Source: Fomes fomentarius
Lineage: Eukaryota; Basidiomycota; Agaricomycetes; Polyporales; Polyporaceae
Length of the DNA stretch: 64,000 nucleotides
Assembly: GCA_022606135.1 (NCBI GenBank)
Contig: JABYQN010000004.1
Span: forward strand, 3,100,001 to 3,164,000
Direction: 5' to 3'
The notes below the pieces were generated by a model, which did not search any database, was not told the origin of the DNA, and was given only the letters and a program-made list of their open reading frames with translations. The position numbers were made by a program, and so were the translations under genes. The first letter of the stretch is position 1, and the number at the start of each line of letters is the position of its first letter. Positions 15,866 through 64,000 of this stretch are shown in pieces.

Positions 15866-17381
15866 TGGGGATGGGCAGCGCCCGCCTTAGCGAGCTTAGC
15901 CGGCGTCCGGGCGTCTAGGAGCCGCGTAACACTCGGATAGATGTCAGGACTCTTATCTCCCAAGTGATTACACGGCCCCTCATCGGCATGGAAAAACTCC
16001 GCTCGCTTACGGCGGGACGATGGTACATGGCTTGTACAGCAGATCCCACCTCTTATTCCTCACCATATCATTTATCAAGTTGCGCGATTGATACAGAAGG
16101 ATATATTCTACAACAATGCCTGACCGATTGTCATCATGTGGAATAGCACCGAAGACATGGACGAACAAACATATCGAGCATATAAGCGCGCATTTTGGCC
16201 TCCTGTGCCATGCAGAATGACATCTGAGTCTACATTGTACTACACAAAAATCTTGCAGCAGAAGATGTATCTCATTAATTCATCAGTAAACAAGGATAAT
16301 GGATGCAATTCATCCCTTACTCCTATTCCTACCCCTCTCAGTCTCTCACCAGTACATCGGACGACGGAGCTGTTAAACTTCCGGACTACCAGCTGTGCTC
16401 GGACCGGAGTTGTATACACTTGTTTATGGTCATATGATTAGATAGGCTGTGTTCCTACTTACCATTTATGGTTTTCTTTGTTCTCCTACTGTACTTTCCC
16501 ATGACCATATGGTTACTGTGCATTCCTGTGCGTACCAGTGCGTTCTACACTGCACTGGACTCTTCTAGACCTTATGTCTGACTCATGCTATGACTGTATC
16601 TGACTCATACGCCGATACGGACTCTGACTCATCGTCTTATGGCTACATGTGACTGCTTCATTCGCTGACTCATGGACTCATTCCTCATGTATAAAAGCAG
16701 TCCCTTCTTCGCCTCTGCTCTTCAGTCGTTCGCTCACTGACTGAAGAGTAAGTCTCTTACCTACATATGCTCTACTACTTCTTACTGACTTAGTACTTGT
16801 AGTCCCTCTCTGTTGTGACTTACAGGTACTTCACTATGCAATAGAGTCGTTCGCTCACTGACTGAAGATCCCTCTCTGTTGTGACTTACAGTCGCTCCTC
16901 GCCTTACAGGTTCAGAGTTCATCAGGAGCCTCTCCGAGTCAGGCTGCCTCCACCTGCACTTCGAGGAACCCCAGATTGAAGCCTACAGCAGAGCACCAGA
17001 GGTGCAAATTGAGGAGGCCCAGGCCACAACTACGACGTGAGAGGTGACTACAAACATCATGGAGGCAAGTCCGAGTCCTCATGGCAGGTCTGGCATTGAA
17101 GACTCATGTTCAACGAATGTCCAAGTACCTGCTATGACTTCTATACTCCGGCACATGAATGATTGTTGTGTCTACGTCTAGATGTGGATGTTGCACTTCA
17201 GGAATACTGTTGCGTATCACTGCACAGTGAGGACCGTTGATCCTGGTTGGAGTTTGAACAATGGACCACTGAATCCGGTATATCTCGCTTAGATGTGAGG
17301 AAAGGAGTTATCTCTCCTCGTTTCGTGGGCGCTTGGACCCGTGTGAACTGGACACCGGCTAACGGGCGCTGCCCATCCCCA
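15866..17381. mobile_element. DNA element with inverted termini, 7-bp target duplication
   Basis: The ends are inverted copies of TGGGGATGGGCAGCGCCCG; after an indel the similarity continues for about 15 more bases (TTAGCCGG-like). CTGGCTC flanks both ends (15859-15865 and 17382-17388), a 7-bp target-site duplication. Unit 1 shows the uninterrupted site near 8695-8710. Without the nested solo LTR (16371-16924 plus its 5-bp duplication) the element is about 957 bp. I see no transposase, so it is probably a non-autonomous TIR element. The superfamily is uncertain. Confidence 0.75.
16371..16924 (+). repeat. Solo copia LTR (family 1)
   Basis: 554 bp, TG...CA ends, same length as the LTRs of elements A, B and C and closely similar to them. 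Flanked by a perfect 5-bp duplication GGAGC (16366-16370 and 16925-16929). No internal element sequence is attached, so it arose by LTR-LTR recombination after insertion into the DNA element 15866-17381. It carries the intron-like segment at 16748-16802 and the intronless second copy downstream, as in the other LTRs. Confidence 0.95.
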
Positions 17382-40940: not shown

Positions 40941-42160
40941 GTGGCGGACAGAGCTGCAAGTCAACTGGGCAGTTGCAACCCCACTCCACCCCCTATCTCC
41001 CCATTGCTCTTTCCCGGTCTCAACCTCAAAGTCACAGGCTTTCAAGAACGCACTGCACCTAGATCTCCCACACGGATCATTCTCAATTCACCACCACTGC
41101 TACCGACACAATCCCTGGCACATTCAAACCCACCCTCATCTCCATCCGAACCAACATCGCCAACCATGCCTCCACTGTCTGACTCAATGGTACAGATGCT
41201 TGCACCTGCTGTGTTCAATGGCAAGATGCTGAACCTGCTGGTCAAAGATGCGGCAGTATGGGCCGTTCCATTCTACCCAAGACTTGGGGCCAGTCCACCG
41301 CCATGGTCAATGTTTGACAACTTTGAACGCAACTTTAAGGTGCACTTCTGTCCTGTCGATGATGTCGCAGTGGCTTCCAAGGAGCTGAAGAATTGGGGGT
41401 GTGGGGGGTCATGCCCACGCATGGCGAATCTGCAGGAGTGGATGTTGGAATTACTATGGACTATGGACTATAGACGTGCATTAGGTGCTTATGGGCACAG
41501 CATTTTCCTTGGCTATGTTTCCTTCTTACCTGATATGGTACACTGAATACTGTACTTATATGGTTATCTGTTTTCACTTTGTCCAGTCCATTCTGGTGCA
41601 TTCTACACTGCTCCAGATAGTTCTAGATAGTCTTGGATGCGTCCATGTGACCATCTCTAGTATATTCTACAGCTTTCTCTTTGTTCTGTCTGAGTCATCG
41701 CTCCACCTTTCTTACTCAGCATTGGTTCACTCTGACTCAGACATATCACATGCTCTCCTTTCTGTCACTTACTTATGCAGCTCCTGTACAGTATATAAGG
41801 AGGGACTTTCAGGGCTTCGTCTCCTCAGTCTTTGCTCACTGACTGAGGAGTAAGTACTTTGTTCTACTATATGCTTTATGCTCTTACTTACTTAGTACCT
41901 ATAGCTCGTCTGTCTGAATGTCTACTAGGTACTTATCACTTTATGATTATAGTCTTTGCTCACTGACTGAGGACTTGTCTGTCTGCATGTCTACTAGCTG
42001 TTGCGACTCTTGCCTTCACAGGTTCAGACTTCATCAGTGGATGGCAAAGTTCAATGCTGTGGCAGTGTGCACTACGCTGTCTGATGAGGACAAGCAGATG
42101 CGCTACTGCGACACATTGCTGCATGGTTTATGCCATCAGCTAGCAGTTGCTTCAGGTTGG
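40941..42160 (+). pseudogene. Gypsy gag remnant split by a solo LTR
   Basis: The plus-strand frame from 40941 gives a proline-rich stretch then a retroelement Gag core to NLQEW at about 41440. The frame resumes at 42037 (MAKFNAVAV) after the solo LTR 41443-42036. The two halves meet at the duplicated GTGGA, which codes across the junction. The start is uncertain, since earlier frames also show Gag-like composition. Confidence 0.65.
41443..42036 (+). repeat. Solo LTR of a diverged copia-like family (family 2)
   Basis: 594 bp, TG...CA, flanked by a perfect 5-bp duplication GTGGA (41438-41442 and 42037-42041). It aligns along its length with the 554-bp family 1 LTR but with many differences. 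TATATAA at 41792-41798. Two TGACTCA-type sites (TGAGTCA near 41691-41697, TGACTCA near 41734-41740). It shares the unusual architecture of family 1: a 47-nt sequence split by a 55-nt GT-AG segment (41850-41904), then an unsplit copy at 41951-41997. Confidence 0.9.
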
Positions 42161-44082: not shown

Positions 44083-44636
44083 TGATGAACTCTGAACCTG
44101 TAAGGCAAGGAGTGACTGGAAGTCACAACAGAGAGAGATCTTCAGTCAGTGAGTGAACAACTCTATTGCATAGTGAAGTACCTGTAAGTCACAACAAAGA
44201 GAGACTACAAGTACTAAGTCAGTAAGAAGTAGTAGAGCGTATGTAGGTAAGAGACTTACTCTTCAGTCAGTGAGCGAACGACTGAAGAGCAGAGGCGAAG
44301 AAGGGACTGCTTATATACATGAGGGATGAGTCCATGAGTCAGCGGATAAAGCAGTCACATGTAGCCATAAGATGATGAGTCAGAGTCCATATCGGCATAT
44401 GAGTCAGATATAGTCATAGCATGAGTCAGACATTAGGTCTAGAAGAGTCCGGTGCAGTGTAGAATGCACTGGTACGCATAGGAATGCACAGTAACCATAT
44501 GGTCATGGGAAAGTACAGTAGGAGAACAAAGAAAACCATAAATGGTAAGTAGGAACACAGCCTATCTAATCATATGACCATAAACAGGTGTACACAACTC
44601 CGGTCCGAGCACAGCTGGTAGTCCGGAAGTTCAACA
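44083..44636 (-). repeat. Element A 3' LTR (family 1)
   Basis: 554 bp, TG...CA on the minus strand. Compared with the LTRs of B and C it carries numerous transitions, several at CpG. CAAGT precedes it on the plus strand; CAAGT also occurs two bases beyond the right end of the element (50584-50588), a possible but imperfect target duplication. Confidence 0.9.
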
Positions 44637-49761: not shown

Positions 49762-50361
49762 TGTTGCGGCGACTTGACGCAGAGCCCCTAGACACTGATC
49801 GGCAGCGATCGATAGGGCGAGGCGGCAAGGAGCCGAAAGGTGGAGGGGAAATGGTAGAGGGGAAGAGAAAGAGAGAGAGAGAGAGGGATGAACTCGACAA
49901 GGACAAAGCAACGACCGGCTCTAAGGCACAAGATCGTCGACAGCTAGTCTTCAAGCACAATGCGACAGACTAGTCCCAGTGACCAAGTTATCTATTAGTA
50001 CGGAGAGTACACATACAGGTGGGGGATTCTACTCACCTAGTCCCAGTGACCAAGAGGTCGAGATGGGGACTAGGGAGGGCGCTAACTGGTCTTATATACT
50101 GCTGGGGAATCAAACAATGCCAAACAGTGATGGGAAGTGAATCATGGGGAGTCACAAGGGTGCGGGAGTCAGAATGAACAAGAATGAGTCATGTGGGAAA
50201 CCGAAGAGAGGGATCAAATCCGAGGAAAGGGTATAGATAAAAGGGGAAGTGGGCAGCTACCAGAGTGACTGGGGTAACAAAGGGTGACAAAGTGTGACAG
50301 AATGGTGATGAAGTGACGAAAAAGAGGTGCTGAAGGAGGCGCTGGTACTGCATCCATGACA
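49762..50361 (-). repeat. Nested solo LTR of an unrelated LTR element
   Basis: 600 bp, minus orientation, starting TGTCATGG and ending CCGCAACA. Flanked by a 5-bp duplication GTAAA (49757-49761 and 50362-50366) and absent from the equivalent place in B and C. TATATAAG on the minus strand at about 50091-50098. Downstream of the TATA an 18-bp sequence (CTTGGTCACTGGGACTAG) occurs twice, at 50054-50037 and 49988-49971. The first copy is followed immediately by a GTGAGT splice-donor-like motif. Confidence 0.85.
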
Positions 50362-50379
50362 GTAAAGTCCCCCTGGCAG

Positions 50380-50581
50380 CAGTCATTCACTCACTGACTG
50401 AAGAGTAAGTCTCTTACCTACATATGCTCTACTACTTCTTACTGACTTAGTACTTGTAGTCTCTCTCTGTTGTGACTTACAGGTACTTCACTATGCGATA
50501 GAGTTGTTCGCTCACTGACTGAAGATCTCTCTCTGTTGTGACTTACAGCCGCTCCTCACCTTACAGGTTCAGAGTTCATCA
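50380..50581 (+). repeat. R-U5 LTR fragment joined to element A in inverse orientation
   Basis: Matches the LTR from about its presumed transcription start (AGTCNTTCNCTCACTG) to its CA end, plus orientation, opposite to the rest of A. It is joined to A internal sequence through a shared CAGT (50380-50383). It replaces the 5' LTR and primer site. Confidence 0.85.
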
Positions 50582-50804: not shown

Positions 50805-51358
50805 TGTTGAACTTCCGGACTACCGGCTGTGCTCGGACCGGAGTTGTGTACACTTGTTTATGGTCATATGATTAGATAGGCTGTGTTTCTACTTACCATT
50901 TATGGTTTCCTTTGTTTTTCTACTGTACTTTCCCATGACCATATGGTTACTGTGCATTCCTGTGCGTACCAGTGCGTTCTACACTGCACCGGACTCTTCT
51001 AGACCTTATGTCTGACTCATGCTATGACTGTATCTGACTCATATGCCGATACGGACTCTGACTCATTGTCTTATGGCTACATGTGACTGCTTTATTCGCT
51101 GACTCATGGACTCATCCCTCATGTATATAAGCAGTCCCTTCTTCGCCTCTGCTCTTCAGTCGTTCGCTCACTGACTGAAGAGTAAGTCTCTTACATACAT
51201 ATGCTCTACTACTTCTTACTGACTTAGTACTTGTAGTCCCTCTCTGTTGTGACTTACAGGTACTTCACTATGCAATAGAGTCGTTCGCTCACTGACTGAA
51301 GATCCCTCTCTGTTGTGACTTACAGTCGCTCCTCGCCTTACAGGTTCAGAGTTCATCA
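50805..51358 (+). repeat. Element B 5' LTR
   Basis: 554 bp. Same sub-structure as the 3' LTR: TGACTCA sites, TATATAA at 51124-51130, presumed start near 51158, intron-like segment 51182-51236, unsplit copy 51279-51325. Confidence 0.95.
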
Positions 51359-51382
51359 GGTTATGAGCCCTGCGCTCTAATC
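51359..51382 (+). other. Primer binding site, half initiator tRNA-Met type
   Basis: It begins at the first base after the LTR. The complement contains GCGCAGGGCTCATAACC, which equals the anticodon arm (anticodon CAU) of fungal initiator tRNA-Met as I recall it from yeast, not its 3' CCA end. Drosophila copia and yeast Ty5 prime in this way from a cleaved 5' half-tRNA. Confidence 0.8.
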
Positions 51383-51863
51383 AGTTGCTCCTCTGTCGAC
51401 ACTCTGCGCGCAAACTCTGTTCGTCGACTCTCTGCCCGTGCACTCTCCTCCACTTTCCCTAACTCTTGACTGTGCCCTCCGACACTGCTGCCAGGGGGAC
51501 TTTACTGCGCTCGTGACGCAGCCCTGAGCGCTTTTAGTAGTCGCTATCTAGTATCTCTGTACAACCTTTGGTGCTTTCGCGGCACACGGGTTTTCAAGTA
51601 TCCTCAGCCAGGCCATGCACTTGCGCCCGCCAGCTGTTGTAGCCGGGGTGGTTATCACCTTTGGACCGGAGGACAACCGTTCGGACCCTCCTTACTATAC
51701 TCTTTTTGATACCTAGACTTGTATAGCTTTTCTTGGGCACAGTTGGCGACTTCTATCTGGATTGTTGGGAATATCGGCTTCCTGACCCTCTGGCTCACCT
51801 CAATAGGTGTTCCTCTCTACCAGATCTCGCACGTGGCAAGTCAATCATCGCGTTTTTCTCTGA

Positions 51864-53702
51864 ACCATCGTACTGGAGCCGCCTACTACTGCCAATAGTC
51901 CTCAGCTCAGCTCCGACTCTGAAGCTGAAGTCAACGCTGAACTTGCAGAACATCACTCTACTGCATCAGCGTTTGATTGCTCGGAACAGCCCCATCTCTT
52001 TGATCTAGACGATCAGGTCGATCGTTATCACTACGTCTACGACGACGGAGAGCAGGAGTGGGACCAGTGCGACGTACAGCTCTGTCCCAATCGCTACAAT
52101 CAACTCCCTCTTCCGTACGAACCGACCTTCTACTGGGCATATCCAGCAACTTGGCAGCAGGACACCGACCCACAACACGGAGTTCCTCTTCCCTATCTTC
52201 AGGAAGAAACTCACGCACAGCCCTCCTCGTCTCGTCCTAATTTCTATCTCCGATCGCTCTTCGGAAACTCCCCTCCTGTCGATTCAAGTCCTCTTCCTCC
52301 AGTCTACCTTCCTCCTCCTATCGTCACTGCGCCCCCAGTCGCGCCTATCACATTCACTCTAGACTTCAAGGAGGAATATCTCGATTCTCCCCAATACCTC
52401 TTATCCATCATGGGAGATATCAAAGTCGACTCTATCCCTGTCCTCTCTTCGGCGAATCAGTACAACGACTGGTCTGCCAAGATGAAGGGCTATTTCATCT
52501 TCATGGACTGTTGGAGTGTTGTCAAAGGCGCTACTCGTCCTACTGAGCAAGCTGCCAAGGACAAGTGGGATAAACTTGATGGGCAAGCTCGCGGCATGAT
52601 GTACATGCGTGTCGCACCAAACTTTCACTACGTTCTGGACACTCAGATTCCTGTCTCGGGTGGACAACCCAGGGACATGACTGCTGCTGAGTCCTGGGAA
52701 GCGTTACAGAACAAGTTTGGCAAGCCTAACAGTGCCCACGTCTGGGGTTTGTTCGAGTCGCTCGTTGCTGAGCCTCGGATGAACGAACAGAAGCCCCTTC
52801 AGGATCAGATGATGCGTCTTATCACACGCCTGCGCGAAATTAGTAGCAACGGCGTCACGCTCTCTGACAACATGCAAGCCCTTCTCTTGATGTCCAAGAT
52901 CCCGGAGTCGTACCGGTCCATGGTTTCTGCGCTTATGGCGACCACAGACCTCGACAAGGTCACTCTCGATGACATCCAGTCGAAGACCTTGGCTGAGGAG
53001 TCCATGCGCAAGAACGGCCAGTCCGCGAACAAGGTCTCCCAGACCAAGCCGAAGCCCAAGGGTCCCTGCTCTCATTGCGGAAGTGGCTCTCATCATGAGT
53101 CCAACTGCTATCAGAAGTACCCTGAGAAGCGTCCCAAAGGCAAGGGCAAGGGTAAAGGGAAGGACAAAGACAAGGATAAGGACAAGGGGAAGAATAAGGA
53201 CACTTCTCATAACCATGCGCACGTCACTACCGAGTCTGTATCATCTGTACTTGTAGCCGGTTCGTCTAACATCGCTGCTTCTTTCTACGATGAGGCTATG
53301 GCCTCGAACAGTGTGAACTGGACTGCATGGCTGATGGACTCTGGAGCCTCTCAACATATCACTGGTGATCTCTCTGAGTTCATTGAGTACCAACCCTTCG
53401 ATATGCCTGTACTGTTTAACACTGCTGGACAAGGTGATAGCAGCGTCATTCAGGCACTTGGGGAAGGAACTCTGTCTGGAGAAACCTGGTTAGACGGTCA
53501 GAAGGTAGCAATTACTCTGAACCACATCTACTACATACCAGGCACCATCGGTCACATCTTCTCGACTGGCTCCATTGAGCGCAATGGTTACTCCCTCTTT
53601 CAAGGGGATGGGTGCATGTGCATTTTCGACAAGCTGCCTGATGGCGCTGTCAAACATGGTTCGACGATTCATATCAAGGGTCATAAGATCCTGGAGGTGT
53701 GA
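51864..53702 (+). CDS. Copia gag-protease (element B), with open frame upstream of the ATG
   Basis: The ATG at 52410 gives 430 codons, but the frame is open from 51864 (612 codons). The added N-terminal region is rich in Asp/Glu, Tyr and Pro (DDGEQEWDQCDVQL, PPVYLPPPIVTAPP) and looks protein-coding, although it has no ATG. It could be reached by splicing or by a non-AUG start. Known parts: Gag core, CCHC knuckle CSHCGSGSHHESNC, KGK/KDK run, protease WLMDSGASQHITGD. Ends at TGA 53700-53702, in frame with integrase. Confidence 0.85.
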   Translation, partial: TIVLEPPTTANSPQLSSDSEAEVNAELAEHHSTASAFDCSEQPHLFDLDDQVDRYHYVYDDGEQEWDQCDVQLCPNRYNQLPLPYEPTFYWAYPATWQQDTDPQHGVPLPYLQEETHAQPSSSRPNFYLRSLFGNSPPVDSSPLPPVYLPPPIVTAPPVAPITFTLDFKEEYLDSPQYLLSIMGDIKVDSIPVLSSANQYNDWSAKMKGYFIFMDCWSVVKGATRPTEQAAKDKWDKLDGQARGMMYMRVAPNFHYVLDTQIPVSGGQPRDMTAAESWEALQNKFGKPNSAHVWGLFESLVAEPRMNEQKPLQDQMMRLITRLREISSNGVTLSDNMQALLLMSKIPESYRSMVSALMATTDLDKVTLDDIQSKTLAEESMRKNGQSANKVSQTKPKPKGPCSHCGSGSHHESNCYQKYPEKRPKGKGKGKGKDKDKDKDKGKNKDTSHNHAHVTTESVSSVLVAGSSNIAASFYDEAMASNSVNWTAWLMDSGASQHITGDLSEFIEYQPFDMPVLFNTAGQGDSSVIQALGEGTLSGETWLDGQKVAITLNHIYYIPGTIGHIFSTGSIERNGYSLFQGDGCMCIFDKLPDGAVKHGSTIHIKGHKILEV

Positions 53703-55709
53703 TACAACCCTTCATCTAATTGTTATTGGACTATTATTGAGCTTCACAACAGCAAGCGCGTCCATCTCAATGTCCATAAGTTCAAGACCTGGCACCATCG
53801 CTTTGGTCATGCGGGCAAGGACGTTCTGCGCAACCTTCCTAAGCATACTAAGGGGGTTGATGCTGTTGATCCTGCAGACGAAGAACCGTGTGATGGATGC
53901 GCTTTTGGCAAATCCACTCGTAACCCCTTTCCACCTTCTGAGAAGCGTGCTACTGAAGTTCTCGAGCGAGTCCATACGGACCTCGATGGACTGATGCGCA
54001 CTCAGGCTATCGGAGGTTGGAAATACTTCGCCGGTTTTATTGATGACTATTCTGGTCTCGCTCGTGCTTACTTCCTTAAACACAAGTCTGACGCGATCCA
54101 AGCGTTCAAAGACTATAAGGCATGGGCTGAGAACCAGACCGGCAAGAAGATCAAATCGATCCGCTCAGATCGAGGGGGGGAATACACATCAGACGAGTTC
54201 TCTACACTTCTTCGTTCGCACGGTATCGAGCACCAGAAGACTCTACCGGGTTCGCCTCAACAGAATGGACGTGCTGAGCGCTGGAATCGTACTATTACTG
54301 AAAAGGCTCTGTCTATGCTCCACCAAGCAGGCCTTAGTCATGGTTTCTGGCAACTCGCTCTTGACGCAGCTGTTCATATCTACAATCGTCAACCTATGCG
54401 ACGACAGAAGTGGTTGTGCCCCATCACTGTTTGGGATGGTACCGTTCTGGATGTCTCTTACTTCAGAGTGTTTGGGTGCAAAGCTTTTGTCCATGTGCAG
54501 AAGGCAAAGTGCGAAGGGAAACTCGACAAGAAGGCTGTCGAGATGATCTTCGTTGGGTATGAGTCTGGTTCCAAGGGGTATAGGTTTTGGAATCCAGCCA
54601 ACCGCTCTATCGTCGTGTCCCGCGATGCAACATTTGACGAAGAGTCTTTCCCTGCTCGTAACTTACCTGGCAACCGTCCTTCTACCCTGGACGACAGTCC
54701 GTTCTCAGATGATCAATCGGATGATTCCTCGAACGATGACTCTGATTCGGTCGATCCCAATGATGCAATCCCTTTCATTCCTCCCAACATCTTCGAACCA
54801 CCACAACCTGACCCTCCAGCGGATGCTGATCCCGCTCCTCCTGCAGAAGCTCCTGCTGAGCCTCCTCCTCCTCCGCAACGTCCTCCTACACCGCCTCCTG
54901 TCATTCCTCCTCATCCTCCTCACAAACGTGGTCGTCACCCTCCAGTGGGAGCTAATGAACCAAGCATTGCTCGTGACCGTCCTCGTCGCGAAAAAGCTGG
55001 TATTCCCCACAAGGACAGGACTGATAACAATGTGTATGACGATCCTGCACGTGCTGATAATCAGATCGACAAGGATGGCAATCTGCGCGAAGCGGAGATG
55101 ATACTCGCTTTTCTAGCTGCTGCTCAGTATAAAGCTGGCTTACCTCAGTTGCATAAGGAAGCCATGCGCTCACCTGATGCTGAGAAATGGCGCGGAGCTG
55201 AGAAGTCAGAATTTGAGTCGCTTATGGAGAATAAGACTTGGGTTCTCATTCCTCATCCCAAGGGCCGGCATGTTGTCTCTAACCGCTGGGTCTATGACAT
55301 CAAACATGATGGGCGGTACAAGGCTCATCTGGTTGCAAAGGGTTTCACTCAGGTGTGGGGAGAGGACTACCATGAGACGTTCTCTCCAGTGGCGCGGTTT
55401 GAGTCTATCCGGTATTTACTCGCGCATGCAGCGCTTGAGGACTGGGACATCGAGTCAATGGATGTCAAAACCGCGTTCCTGAATGGCGATCTAGATGAGG
55501 AGATTTATATGGAACAGCCGGAAGGCTGGGTCGTTCCTGGGAAGGAAGATCATGTCTGTCTACTCAAAAAGGCTATCTATGGTCTTAAGCAGGCGTCGCG
55601 TCAGTGGAATGCGAAAATCCATCAATCGCTTCTAGATCTGGGATTTACACGGACATATTCTGATGCTGGGATCTACGTATATCGGCGACAAGGGGGGATC
55701 ACGTCATGA
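53703..55709 (+). CDS. Copia integrase and N-terminal RT (element B)
   Basis: The open frame follows the gag TGA; first ATG at 53994. Integrase zinc domain (WHHRFGHAG, CDGCAFGKS), catalytic core (DDYSG, SDRGGEYTS, QQNGRAERWN), proline-rich linker, then the first half of RT to QGG. The frame ends in a run of six G (55691-55696) where A and C have seven, so the protein stops before the catalytic YVDD. Confidence 0.85.
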   Translation, partial: YNPSSNCYWTIIELHNSKRVHLNVHKFKTWHHRFGHAGKDVLRNLPKHTKGVDAVDPADEEPCDGCAFGKSTRNPFPPSEKRATEVLERVHTDLDGLMRTQAIGGWKYFAGFIDDYSGLARAYFLKHKSDAIQAFKDYKAWAENQTGKKIKSIRSDRGGEYTSDEFSTLLRSHGIEHQKTLPGSPQQNGRAERWNRTITEKALSMLHQAGLSHGFWQLALDAAVHIYNRQPMRRQKWLCPITVWDGTVLDVSYFRVFGCKAFVHVQKAKCEGKLDKKAVEMIFVGYESGSKGYRFWNPANRSIVVSRDATFDEESFPARNLPGNRPSTLDDSPFSDDQSDDSSNDDSDSVDPNDAIPFIPPNIFEPPQPDPPADADPAPPAEAPAEPPPPPQRPPTPPPVIPPHPPHKRGRHPPVGANEPSIARDRPRREKAGIPHKDRTDNNVYDDPARADNQIDKDGNLREAEMILAFLAAAQYKAGLPQLHKEAMRSPDAEKWRGAEKSEFESLMENKTWVLIPHPKGRHVVSNRWVYDIKHDGRYKAHLVAKGFTQVWGEDYHETFSPVARFESIRYLLAHAALEDWDIESMDVKTAFLNGDLDEEIYMEQPEGWVVPGKEDHVCLLKKAIYGLKQASRQWNAKIHQSLLDLGFTRTYSDAGIYVYRRQGGITS

Positions 55710-56683
55710 TTGTCGTTCTTTATGTCGACGATTTACTTCTGATGGGCAATCAGTCTAGTCACATCAAACAAGTCAAGCGTTCGCTTTCTAAGCAGTACAA
55801 GATGACGGACTTGGGATCTGTACAGCGCTTCCTTGGTCTTCGCATCACTCGTGATCGATCCACTCGTATGATCGACATCGACCAGGAAGAGTACATCCAG
55901 TCTGTTCTCGAGCGCTTTCAGATGGCCGACTGTAAACCCTCACGTACACCCCTTCCTGCTGGTGCTGTCTTGGCAAGTGCCGACGAACCAGCTTCCGATC
56001 AGTTCAGGCAACACTACCAGAGTCTCATTGGCAGTCTTTTGTACGCCATGCTCGGAACGCGTCCTGATATCTCCTTCGCTGTCACACGGTTATCGAAGTA
56101 CAATGCCAATCCCTCTGAAGCGCACATGAGTTATGCGAAGTATGTCCTGCGTTACCTTCAAGGGACAAAGGCGTATCGCTTGCGCTACAAGGGAGCGTCT
56201 AATGACGGTCTGATTTCCTATTCGGATTCAGATTGGGCCGAAGACCGTGATGATCGGCATTCTACCTCTGGCTTCGTCTTCTTGATGGCAGGTGGTGCTA
56301 TATCGTGGGCTTCGAGGCGTCAGCCTACCATTTCGCTCTCCTCTACTGAAGCGGAATATAAAGCGGCCTCTGATACCTGTCGTCAGTTGATCTGGCTGAG
56401 GACGTTTGGCGATGAACTTGGTGATGACTTGACCAGGCCGACACCCATGTGTTTAGACAACCAGGGTTCGATTTTCCTGTCAGTCAATCCAGTAGTCGAC
56501 CGGCGTACCAAGCACATAGAGATTCGCTACCACTTCATTCGTGAACAAGTGGAGTCTGGCTCTGTCGAGATCTTCTATGTTGCGACTGCGGATCAGTTGG
56601 CTGATTCTCTCACAAAGAACGTGCCTTATTCCATTTTGGCAAAGTTCGTTGATGAGATCGGTCTTGTTTCCGTTGCATCTTGA
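55706..56683 (+). CDS. Copia RT C-terminal half and RNase H (element B, after frameshift)
   Basis: Begins with VVLYVDDLLLMG, the RT catalytic motif, in the frame left by the G-run deletion. RNase H follows (SYSDSDWAEDRDDRHSTSG, SLSSTEAEYKAASD) and the original C terminus LVSVAS is kept. It joins the preceding ORF only through a 1-nt frameshift: probably a real deletion, possibly a homopolymer sequencing error. Confidence 0.85.
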   Translation: MIVVLYVDDLLLMGNQSSHIKQVKRSLSKQYKMTDLGSVQRFLGLRITRDRSTRMIDIDQEEYIQSVLERFQMADCKPSRTPLPAGAVLASADEPASDQFRQHYQSLIGSLLYAMLGTRPDISFAVTRLSKYNANPSEAHMSYAKYVLRYLQGTKAYRLRYKGASNDGLISYSDSDWAEDRDDRHSTSGFVFLMAGGAISWASRRQPTISLSSTEAEYKAASDTCRQLIWLRTFGDELGDDLTRPTPMCLDNQGSIFLSVNPVVDRRTKHIEIRYHFIREQVESGSVEIFYVATADQLADSLTKNVPYSILAKFVDEIGLVSVAS

Positions 56684-56685
56684 AC

Positions 56686-56694
56686 GAGTGGGAG
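56686..56694 (+). other. Polypurine tract (element B)
   Basis: GAGTGGGAG directly before the 3' LTR, the expected plus-strand primer. Present in C as its complement at 58134-58142, missing in A. Confidence 0.6.
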
Positions 56695-56902
56695 TGTTGA
56701 ACTTCCGGACTACCGGCTGTGCTCGGACCGGAGTTGTGTACACTTGTTTATGGTCATATGATTAGATAGGCTGTGTTTCTACTTACCATTTATGGTTTCC
56801 TTTGTTTTTCTACTGTACTTTCCCATGACCATATGGTTACTGTGCATTCCTGTGCGTACCAGTGCGTTCTACACTGCACCGGACTCTTCTAGACCTTATG
56901 TC

Positions 56903-57020
56903 TGACTCATGCTATGACTGTATCTGACTCATATGCCGATACGGACTCTGACTCATTGTCTTATGGCTACATGTGACTGCTTTATTCGCTGACTCATGGA
57001 CTCATCCCTCATGTATATAA
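56903..57020 (+). promoter_or_regulatory. LTR promoter: four TGACTCA sites and TATA box
   Basis: TGACTCA at 56903-56909, 56925-56931, 56949-56955 and 56990-56996, then TATATAA at 57014-57020. TGACTCA is the binding site of Gcn4/Cpc1- and AP-1-type bZIP activators. Four copies in under 100 bp next to the TATA suggest starvation- or stress-linked transcription. The same sites exist in every family 1 LTR here. Confidence 0.75.
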
Positions 57021-57071
57021 GCAGTCCCTTCTTCGCCTCTGCTCTTCAGTCGTTCGCTCACTGACTGAAGA

Positions 57072-57126
57072 GTAAGTCTCTTACATACATATGCTCTACT
57101 ACTTCTTACTGACTTAGTACTTGTAG
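57072..57126 (+). other. Intron-like segment inside the LTR (R region)
   Basis: 55 nt, GTAAGT donor, TTGTAG acceptor, CTGAC branch-like motif upstream of the acceptor. Its flanking 24 and 23 nt are found joined, without the 55 nt, at 57169-57215. Equivalents: 16748-16802, 51182-51236, 41850-41904 (family 2), and on the minus strand in the LTRs of A and C. Confidence 0.75.
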
Positions 57127-57248
57127 TCCCTCTCTGTTGTGACTTACAGGTACTTCACTATGCAATAGAGTCGTTCGCTCACTGACTGAAGATCCCTCTC
57201 TGTTGTGACTTACAGTCGCTCCTCGCCTTACAGGTTCAGAGTTCATCA

Positions 57249-57579
57249 TGTCGATCGAGTGTGCAAGTTGTCTGAGAGACGTACACCGAAGAGGTGTAGT
57301 CGAGTACTGTGTTAGAAGTCAAGCAGAGGTCGAGGGTTTCGATGGGGAGAAAGCCTCGATTGGAAAAGGAGGTCAAACTGAGGAACACCTCGAGTTTGCC
57401 TATGCTATAAGTACATACATGAGGTACGAGTCACAATGAGTCAGAATGAGTCAGCGCTAGTCAACATGAGTCAGAGCGAGTCATAGTAGGTATGGGTCTA
57501 GGCCTAGTACAGTATGACTCCTACTGAGTCAATGAGACGAGGTAAGCATGATGACGATGTTGGATCGCCGTGAGAACAG
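57249..57579. other. Spacer between B and C with TGAGTCA cluster
   Basis: 331 bp. Four TGAGTCA sites (57437-57443, 57447-57453, 57467-57473, 57525-57531) lie beside a TATAAG-like stretch. Read on the minus strand, the order of sites and TATA resembles an LTR U3, so this may be part of a third, diverged LTR family. If B and C flanks were exchanged by inversion, this piece is the inverted interval. Confidence 0.45.
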
Positions 57580-58133
57580 TGATGAACTCTGAACCTGTAA
57601 GGCGAGGAGCGACTGTAAGTCACAACAGAGAGGGATCTTCAGTCAGTGAGCGAACGACTCTATTGCATAGTGAAGTACCTGTAAGTCACAACAGAGAGGG
57701 ACTACAAGTACTAAGTCAGTAAGAAGTAGTAGAGCATATGTATGTAAGAGACTTACTCTTCAGTCAGTGAGCGAACGACTGAAGAGCAGAGGCGAAGAAG
57801 GGACTGCTTATATACATGAGGGATGAGTCCATGAGTCAGCGAATAAAGCAGTCACATGTAGCCATAAGACAATGAGTCAGAGTCCGTATCGGCATATGAG
57901 TCAGATACAGTCATAGCATGAGTCAGACATAAGGTCTAGAAGAGTCCGGTGCAGTGTAGAACGCACTGGTACGCACAGGAATGCACAGTAACCATATGGT
58001 CATGGGAAAGTACAGTAGAAAAACAAAGGAAACCATAAATGGTAAGTAGAAACACAGCCTATCTAATCATATGACCATAAACAAGTGTACACAACTCCGG
58101 TCCGAGCACAGCCGGTAGTCCGGAAGTTCAACA
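57580..58133 (-). repeat. Element C 3' LTR
   Basis: 554 bp. The base sequence left of it is AACAG; read with the element its 3' flank is CTGTT, identical to the 5' flank of element B. Confidence 0.95.
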
Positions 58134-63470: not shown

Positions 63471-64000
63471 TGATGAACTCTGAACCTGTAAGGCGAGGAG
63501 CGACTGTAAGTCACAACAGAGAGGGATCTTCAGTCAGTGAGCGAACGACTCTATTGCATAGTGAAGTACCTGTAAGTCACAACAGAGAGGGACTACAAGT
63601 ACTAAGTCAGTAAGAAGTAGTAGAGCATATGTATGTAAGAGACTTACTCTTCAGTCAGTGAGCGAACGACTGAAGAGCAGAGGCGAAGAAGGGACTGCTT
63701 ATATACATGAGGGATGAGTCCATGAGTCAGCGAATAAAGCAGTCACATGTAGCCATAAGACAATGAGTCAGAGTCCGTATCGGCATATGAGTCAGATACA
63801 GTCATAGCATGAGTCAGACATAAGGTCTAGAAGAGTCCGGTGCAGTGTAGAACGCACTGGTACGCACAGGAATGCACAGTAACCATATGGTCATGGGAAA
63901 GTACAGTAGAAAAACAAAGGAAACCATAAATGGTAAGTAGAAACACAGCCTATCTAATCATATGACCATAAACAAGTGTACACAACTCCGGTCCGAGCAC
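63471..64000 (-). repeat. Element C 5' LTR (partial)
   Basis: 530 of an expected 554 bp; cut by the window edge. Same content as the other family 1 LTRs. Confidence 0.95.

Follow-up and report, generated by a model that had tools for sequence, protein, structure and literature searches.

An element that is copied by way of spliced RNA should lose its introns. Intron loss via reverse-transcribed spliced RNA is known from retrogenes and from yeast cDNA recombination, in which the spliced form is written back at exact exon borders. In DIRS elements, with their internal complementary region, and in split-intron retroviral vectors, an internal copy of an end or an asymmetry between the 5' and 3' LTRs rebuilds or rearranges the ends; to our knowledge, neither of these uses a naturally spliced duplicate of R. 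Within Ty1/copia, the copia element of Drosophila uses internal tRNA priming. A survey of fungal Copia elements reports for FunCo1 a classical primer-binding site (PBS) that would pair with the interior of a tRNA, and its main text contains neither "intron" nor "splic" and describes no LTR introns (PMC5445492). For HIV-2/SIV, a functional intron has been described within R-U5 of the leader RNA, with a possible role in packaging (PMC1766366).

We analysed a 64,000-nt stretch of DNA (the window; contig C4) within a single genome of 40.9 Mb and 24 contigs, and found in it LTRs in which an intron-like sequence is accompanied by its joined copy. Where retrogene-type loss removes an intron, here intron-bearing and spliced copies coexist and appear to be renewed together. 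As in HIV-2/SIV, an intron would lie between cap and PBS in an LTR-derived leader, the cap and the splicing being predicted here; unlike HIV-2/SIV, for which the cited passage mentions one intron and no spliced copy, two introns would be present, with the second copy inside the second intron (PMC1766366). By analogy, the HIV-2/SIV R-U5 intron is the nearest known system, which the present LTR would partly resemble in its working without being a member of it. A single-strand-transfer vector (PMC5542766) proved beside the point as a comparison, and no comparable system was found in the parts of the open-access literature searched. The locus holds a copia element that seems to use a splicing-dependent, intron-preserving strand transfer.

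The element and the layout of its LTRs

Features of the window are listed in Table 1. Element 1 belongs to Ty1/copia by its gag and RVT_2 domains (copia-type gag and RVT_2: PF14223, E=5.4e-20; PF07727, E=4.4e-52 and 2e-18), by the order of integrase before reverse transcriptase within one ORF (rve residues 6-88, RVT_2 413-563), and by its identical TG...CA LTRs. With fungal and other Ty1/copia elements it shares Gag, this domain order, the TG...CA LTR and a PBS-like sequence directly after the LTR. That sequence, GGTTATGAGCCCTGCGC, is similar to the complement of an interior part of initiator tRNA-Met; a search for the tRNA gene by a 21-nt pattern, one mismatch allowed, gave 0 matches in the genome. 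The pol frame of the window copy is broken at 53702-53994 and 55706-55709, and RVT_2 resumes in another frame. In a protein search, the nearest named relatives came from the polypores Trametes sanguinea (64%) and Rhodofomes roseus (61%), which makes an agaricomycete fungus the probable host. No relatives in other species were found among the viral contigs searched, and a search of genome contigs returned one distant contig (36% identity), a 5.9-kb contig (L155) of a cyanobacterial MAG that encodes a distant copia-type pol and is probably a eukaryotic contaminant.

Table 1 Coordinates of the features in the window (position 1 is its first nucleotide).
Feature	Position	Strand	Remarks
Further family-1 LTR	16371..16924	+	97.5% identical, layout kept
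Family-2 LTR part	41827..42036	+	same segment order; E1 41827-41849, I1 41850-41904, E2 41905-41928
Family-2 LTR part, continued		+	spacer 41929-41950, E1' 41951-41973, E2' 41974-41997, Y to 42036
Further family-1 LTR	44083..44636	-	95.7% identical, layout kept
Element 1, Ty1/copia	50805-57248	+	LTRs and gag/pol ORFs
5' LTR, element 1	50805..51358	+	layout repeated at 51158-51325, segment coordinates checked
Candidate primer-binding site, GGTTATGAGCCCTGCGC	51359..51375	+	directly after 5' LTR
gag ORF	52410..53702	+	Retrotran_gag_2 and Pol_BBD domains
pol ORF	53994..55709	+	integrase, then first part of RVT_2
ORF with remaining RVT_2	55706..56683	+	different frame
3' LTR, element 1	56695..57248	+	554 bp, TG...CA; 100% identical to 50805-51358
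TATA-like box, TATATAA	57014..57020	+	34 nt before E1; from sequence
Inverted repeat CTCTTC...GAAGAG	57042..57072	+	spans putative cap and first base of I1
E1, putative first exon	57048..57071	+	24 nt; putative cap at first base
I1, intron-like GTAAGT...CTGAC...TAG	57072..57126	+	55 nt
E2, putative second exon	57127..57149	+	23 nt, ends CAG before GTACTT
Spacer	57150-57168	+	19 nt
I2, putative second intron GTACTT...CTGAC...TTACAG	57150..57215	+	66 nt; holds spacer and copy 2
E1', second copy of E1	57169..57192	+	identical to E1
E2', second copy of E2	57193..57215	+	identical to E2, joined to E1' without I1; end is the putative I2 3' splice site
Y, rest of LTR (U5) to CA	57216..57248	+	
3' LTR, inverted element 2	57580..58133	-	100% identical
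5' LTR, element 2	63471..64000	-	cut by window end

The original prediction described an LTR in which 24 nt, a 55-nt segment and 23 nt are followed 19 nt later by the same 24 and 23 nt joined; this layout was reproduced to the base, with the GTAAGT donor, the TAG acceptor and a CTGAC that leaves 13 nt to the end of the segment. As claimed, the AGTCG at which the layout begins is also 34 nt away from the TATATAA box, counted from its first T, and this distance together with the border of the duplicate in both LTR families places the putative cap at AGTC. The layout is observed also in the 5' LTR and in inverted element 2. A scan of 340,175 bases on both strands (the window and loci over 1 kb) for an exon, a GT..AG segment of 40-95 nt, an exon and then the joined exons gave 113 matches, overlapping loci being counted repeatedly. 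Since all but one of the 113 fell within the two LTR families, the exception having 5 mismatches in 28, the layout is not a product of chance.

The target-site flanks, CTGTT/TGTCG for element 1 and TGTCG/CTGTT for element 2, pair only if the 331-bp spacer between the inverted elements (57249-57579) is taken as inverted, and turning it round yields two clean 5-bp target duplications. The spacer looks to have been inverted by recombination between the 3' LTRs of the two elements.

Splice-type signals in two LTR families

Elements were compared after segmentation of 93 LTRs (60 of family 1, 33 of family 2). The very diverged L099 and L024, which has no I2, were dropped and LTR pairs were merged, leaving 47 family-1 and 31 family-2 elements; L107 and L108/L109 failed the selection patterns and are absent from these counts. 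Genome-wide, sites matching E1 plus the donor with at most two mismatches number 199.

I1 is 55 nt long in 47/47 family-1 and 28/31 family-2 elements. It starts with GTAAGT in 46/47 and 29/31 and ends with TAG in 46/47 and 31/31, respectively, and across both families GT stands at its start in 78/78 and AG at its end in 77/78. CTGAC is found within I1 in 42/47 family-1 and 0/31 family-2 elements, 30 of the latter having CTTAC instead. As a yardstick, a 60-nt gap in a tubulin gene of the same genome (GTAAGT...CTGAC+13 nt...CAG) agrees with family-1 I1 in its donor and in the distance of 13 nt left after CTGAC, and a second tubulin-match gap measures 61 nt (GTGAGT...CAG). With GT..AG borders, a length usual for fungi and a branch-like site matching host introns, I1 has the features of a spliceosomal intron and may well act as one. 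The contrary outcome considered alongside the original prediction, that the 55 nt are a later insertion unrelated to splice sites, was looked for and is not what these LTRs present: the length and the GT..AG borders of I1 are kept.

In the window element, E1+E2+Y equals E1'+E2'+Y letter for letter. Because copy 2 runs straight into Y, the 66-nt I2 would also be missing from the captured RNA, so that two introns are needed rather than one. We had considered the 19-nt spacer as a GT..AG mini-intron and dropped it: the final G occurs in just 6/47 family-1 elements, five of the six in the window, and 38/47 read CAATAT. As the spacer reads GT..AG only through this rare G, the 66 nt make the better second intron. 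I2 starts with GTACTT in 45/47 family-1 and 31/31 family-2 elements and ends with TTACAG in 46/47 of the former and TACTAG in 31/31 of the latter. Inside it, a CTGAC lies within E1' (47/47 and 29/31, respectively) and a pyrimidine-rich stretch lies in E2'; its GT..AG borders and branch-like site are likewise those expected of a spliceosomal intron.

The presence of the layout in both families is observed directly. An alignment of typed family strings gave identical columns between families 1 and 2 at 21/24 in E1, 44/58 in I1, 17/26 in E2, 16/23 in the spacer and 31/39 in Y. In the window copy of family 2 (41827-42036), E1 and E1' agree exactly and E2 and E2' differ at 2/24 sites. E2 has thus diverged between the families (17/26 columns), yet copy 2 follows copy 1 within each.

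Coupling of the two copies and a possible strand transfer

Copy 1 and copy 2 covary within family-1 elements. E2 equals E2' in 37/47, with 21 differences (mean 0.45 per element) against a shuffled mean of 59.7, and 0 of 10,000 shuffles, in which kinship among elements was ignored, gave a value as low. In family 2, E2 equals E2' in 11/31, with 35 differences (mean 1.13) against 37.7, which was not significant in the shuffle test (2677/10,000). For E1, in which variation at sites 10-24 is understated because this stretch served as a search pattern, the copies are equal in only 18/47 family-1 elements (47 differences, mean 1.00, against 54.9; 186/10,000) and in 26/31 family-2 elements (mean 0.19; 324/10,000). 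Masking of CpG columns left 29 differences against 67.8 in family 1 (0/10,000) and 10 against 11.9 in family 2 (296/10,000). The whole of E1E2 matches E1'E2' exactly in 17/47 and 8/31 elements. At site 3 of family-1 E2, which is not a CpG, the twin position in E2' is T/T in 24 elements, C/C in 21 and discordant in 1 and 1 (p=3.7e-11), a link stronger than that to a neighbouring site of the same exon (the next strongest, 2.7e-6) and than those to the I1, spacer and Y columns with at least four variants. A 1-nt deletion giving a 22-nt E2 is mirrored in E2' in L031 and L102, and private changes are mirrored between copies in L015 (E2) and L062 (E1). Variation in family 2 is mostly at CpG, and coupling within that family is weak.

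Where the two copies differ, the changes cluster at CpG and are C-to-T or G-to-A, at E1 sites 4, 5, 8 and 9 in family 1; in family 2 the CpG differences fall at E2 sites 3, 4 and 12-14, a pattern as after cytosine methylation.

Both between the two diverged families and among the subfamilies of family 1, copy 2 changes along with copy 1, which points to repeated renewal, and from these sequences copy 2 has probably been rewritten repeatedly rather than captured once. The original prediction saw in copy 2 the spliced 5' end of a transcript, captured in the LTR by strand transfer. This core claim is supported and gives the best account of the data, the cap and the splicing being putative, with two modifications: two introns would be needed instead of one, and copy 2 does not look like the product of one event.

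We consider it likely that the LTR holds two short spliceosomal introns and that spliced strong-stop cDNA lands on E1'E2'Y of an unspliced 3' LTR, by which the introns would be restored. The leader would run cap-E1-I1-E2-I2-Y-PBS, with I2 holding the spliced exons E1'E2' directly before Y. Transcription driven by the TATA box would begin at E1, and the 5' end of the RNA would be spliced to E1-E2-Y with PBS, gag and pol retained. Minus-strand strong-stop DNA copied from this RNA would be Y-E2-E1, 80 nt, able to pair with E1 of the unspliced 3' LTR over 24 nt only and with E1'E2'Y over the full 80 nt. Extension from E1' would then copy the spacer, E2, I1, E1 and U3. Landing on E1'E2'Y would mean that in each cycle the 3' LTR supplies both introns anew and the spliced exons serve to rewrite E1'E2', so that the copy 2 of a daughter element would be cDNA of the spliced exons of its parent. 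The 3' LTR copy would have to escape splicing, or else the spliced products would have to be lost; the absence of I1-only losses described below agrees with this and is not evidence by itself.

That copy 2 was captured once, as spliced cDNA or by duplication, and that gene conversion, or recombination among genomic or cDNA copies, has preserved the likeness of the two copies ever since, with no need of splicing in every cycle, strikes us as unlikely, though it deserves some weight. Conversion can take place between direct repeats that lie 121 bp apart, the LTRs without introns or without I2 bear witness to recombination or loss at E1/E1' and E2/E2', and mixing of subfamilies is seen at the level of elements (e.g. 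L088, L030). Tracts of 23-24 nt would nevertheless need frequent conversion while the 55-nt difference stayed put, and the splice-type borders are exact in both families despite an E2 identical at only 17/26 columns.

The introns might instead be spliced for expression only, copy 2 being a repeat that parallel selection keeps for promoter function or RNA structure and not a landing site. ATG occurs in the spliced leader E1-E2-Y of 0/47 family-1 elements, in I1 of 46/47 and in the spacer of 45/47, so that splicing could plausibly be of use in itself; the PBS just downstream, however, contains an ATG anyway, and E2 diverges between families yet is mirrored within them, whereas a common function would hold E2 constant. 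We regard this explanation as very improbable. An origin that involves no splicing, by tandem duplication of E1E2 followed by a 55-nt insertion into the first copy with a coincidental GT..AG, would yield the same letters in a single LTR, but nearly every element of either family has an I1 of 55 nt bounded by GT..AG, it is left unexplained why the spacer starts with GTACTT and why copy 2 lacks the two pieces, and the copies covary; we find it scarcely credible.

The favoured account, landing of spliced strong-stop cDNA on E1'E2'Y, can be extended, more tentatively and at less than even confidence, to a self-renewing, splicing-dependent strand transfer in which I2 carries a pre-spliced landing pad, E1E2 acts as master and E1'E2' is rewritten in each cycle, and in which the U3 inverted repeat may hide the donor and so confine splicing to the 5' copy. 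This repeat would be present in the RNA of the 3' LTR and absent from the capped 5' RNA. Predicted local folds favour the U3 hairpin in both families (-14.8 vs -6.4 and -17.3 vs -8.9 kcal/mol), and the inverted repeat shows one compensatory change (CTCTTC/GAAGAG to CTCCTC/GAGGAG). In longer predicted folds, the mean accessibility of the family-1 donor goes from 0.50 to 0.46 with 10 nt of U3 and to 0.13-0.26 with 20-120 nt, and that of family 2 does not fall (0.02 to 0.09-0.21). Donor masking by the U3 hairpin was not established.

If true, this would be a simple sequence device letting an LTR retrotransposon splice its genomic RNA yet pass on its introns, and a record of splicing and strand transfer left in genomic DNA. 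The E1/E1' and E2/E2' pairs would, should the account hold, form a built-in clock of renewal versus decay.

LTRs without introns and other variants

The genome-wide comparison of LTRs proposed with the original prediction turned up forms without introns and forms without I2, but none without I1 alone. Intronless U3-E1-E2-Y was found in 12 LTRs (10 of 12 and 2 of 2 matches in two pattern searches) and loss of I2 in 15 (10 of 22 and 5 of 5); loss of I1 alone occurred at 0/53 joined sites in family 1 and 0/5 in family 2. A clean loss of I1 alone is expected from splicing only. The intronless and I2-lost LTRs are such as splicing and landing on E1 would leave, and most of them can be explained by deletion between direct repeats.

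One element on contig C18 combines an intronless 5' LTR with a 23-nt E2 (L101) and a 3' LTR whose E2 and E2' are both of the 22-nt form (L102), and the U3 regions of these two LTRs differ at 1/63 positions. Given this mismatch in E2 and the near-identical U3, L101 was not made by deletion within an LTR of the L102 type, and its E2-Y part came from another template without I1 and I2. A spliced, co-packaged RNA would be the simplest source, and gene conversion from another LTR could be an alternative.

A PBS-like sequence follows 6/10 family-1 intronless LTRs versus 17/57 intact ones (p=0.08; 3 of the 60 intact LTRs were too short for a call). Five element pairs have an intronless 5' and an intact 3' LTR and two the reverse (L105/L107; L112/L034, family 2), the U3 regions of L105 and L107 differing so that their status as a single element is uncertain. 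The argument that an excess of intron loss in 5' LTRs proves spliced templates was set aside, this p value and these pair counts being suggestive only.

At 50381-50581 (region 50340-50581) lies a fragment of R-U5 without U3 that begins at base 1 of E1; ahead of it stand 25 nt that match the leader of the element in inverted orientation, with 3 mismatches. The fragment is a single case and resembles what an aberrant strong-stop product would leave.

In L108 and L109 (C13:82.4k and 88.3k), which belong to one element as its two LTRs, E1' is followed by two E2 units in a head-to-tail row, the first of 22 nt and the second of 23 nt, and then by Y; these LTRs were the sole two matches in a search for this E2-E2 pattern. 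A splice-type junction would fit here, but duplication with a 2-nt microhomology is equally adequate, and the candidate was not retained. The 5' LTR L107 (C1:3730k) has several single-base deletions in a short stretch, from assembly error or decay. In some family-1 LTRs (L007, L018, L019/L063, L021-L023, L058, L080 and L081), E2' and Y are separated by an insert of 10 nt (TGACTTACAG) or of 13 nt (TTGTGACTTACAG).
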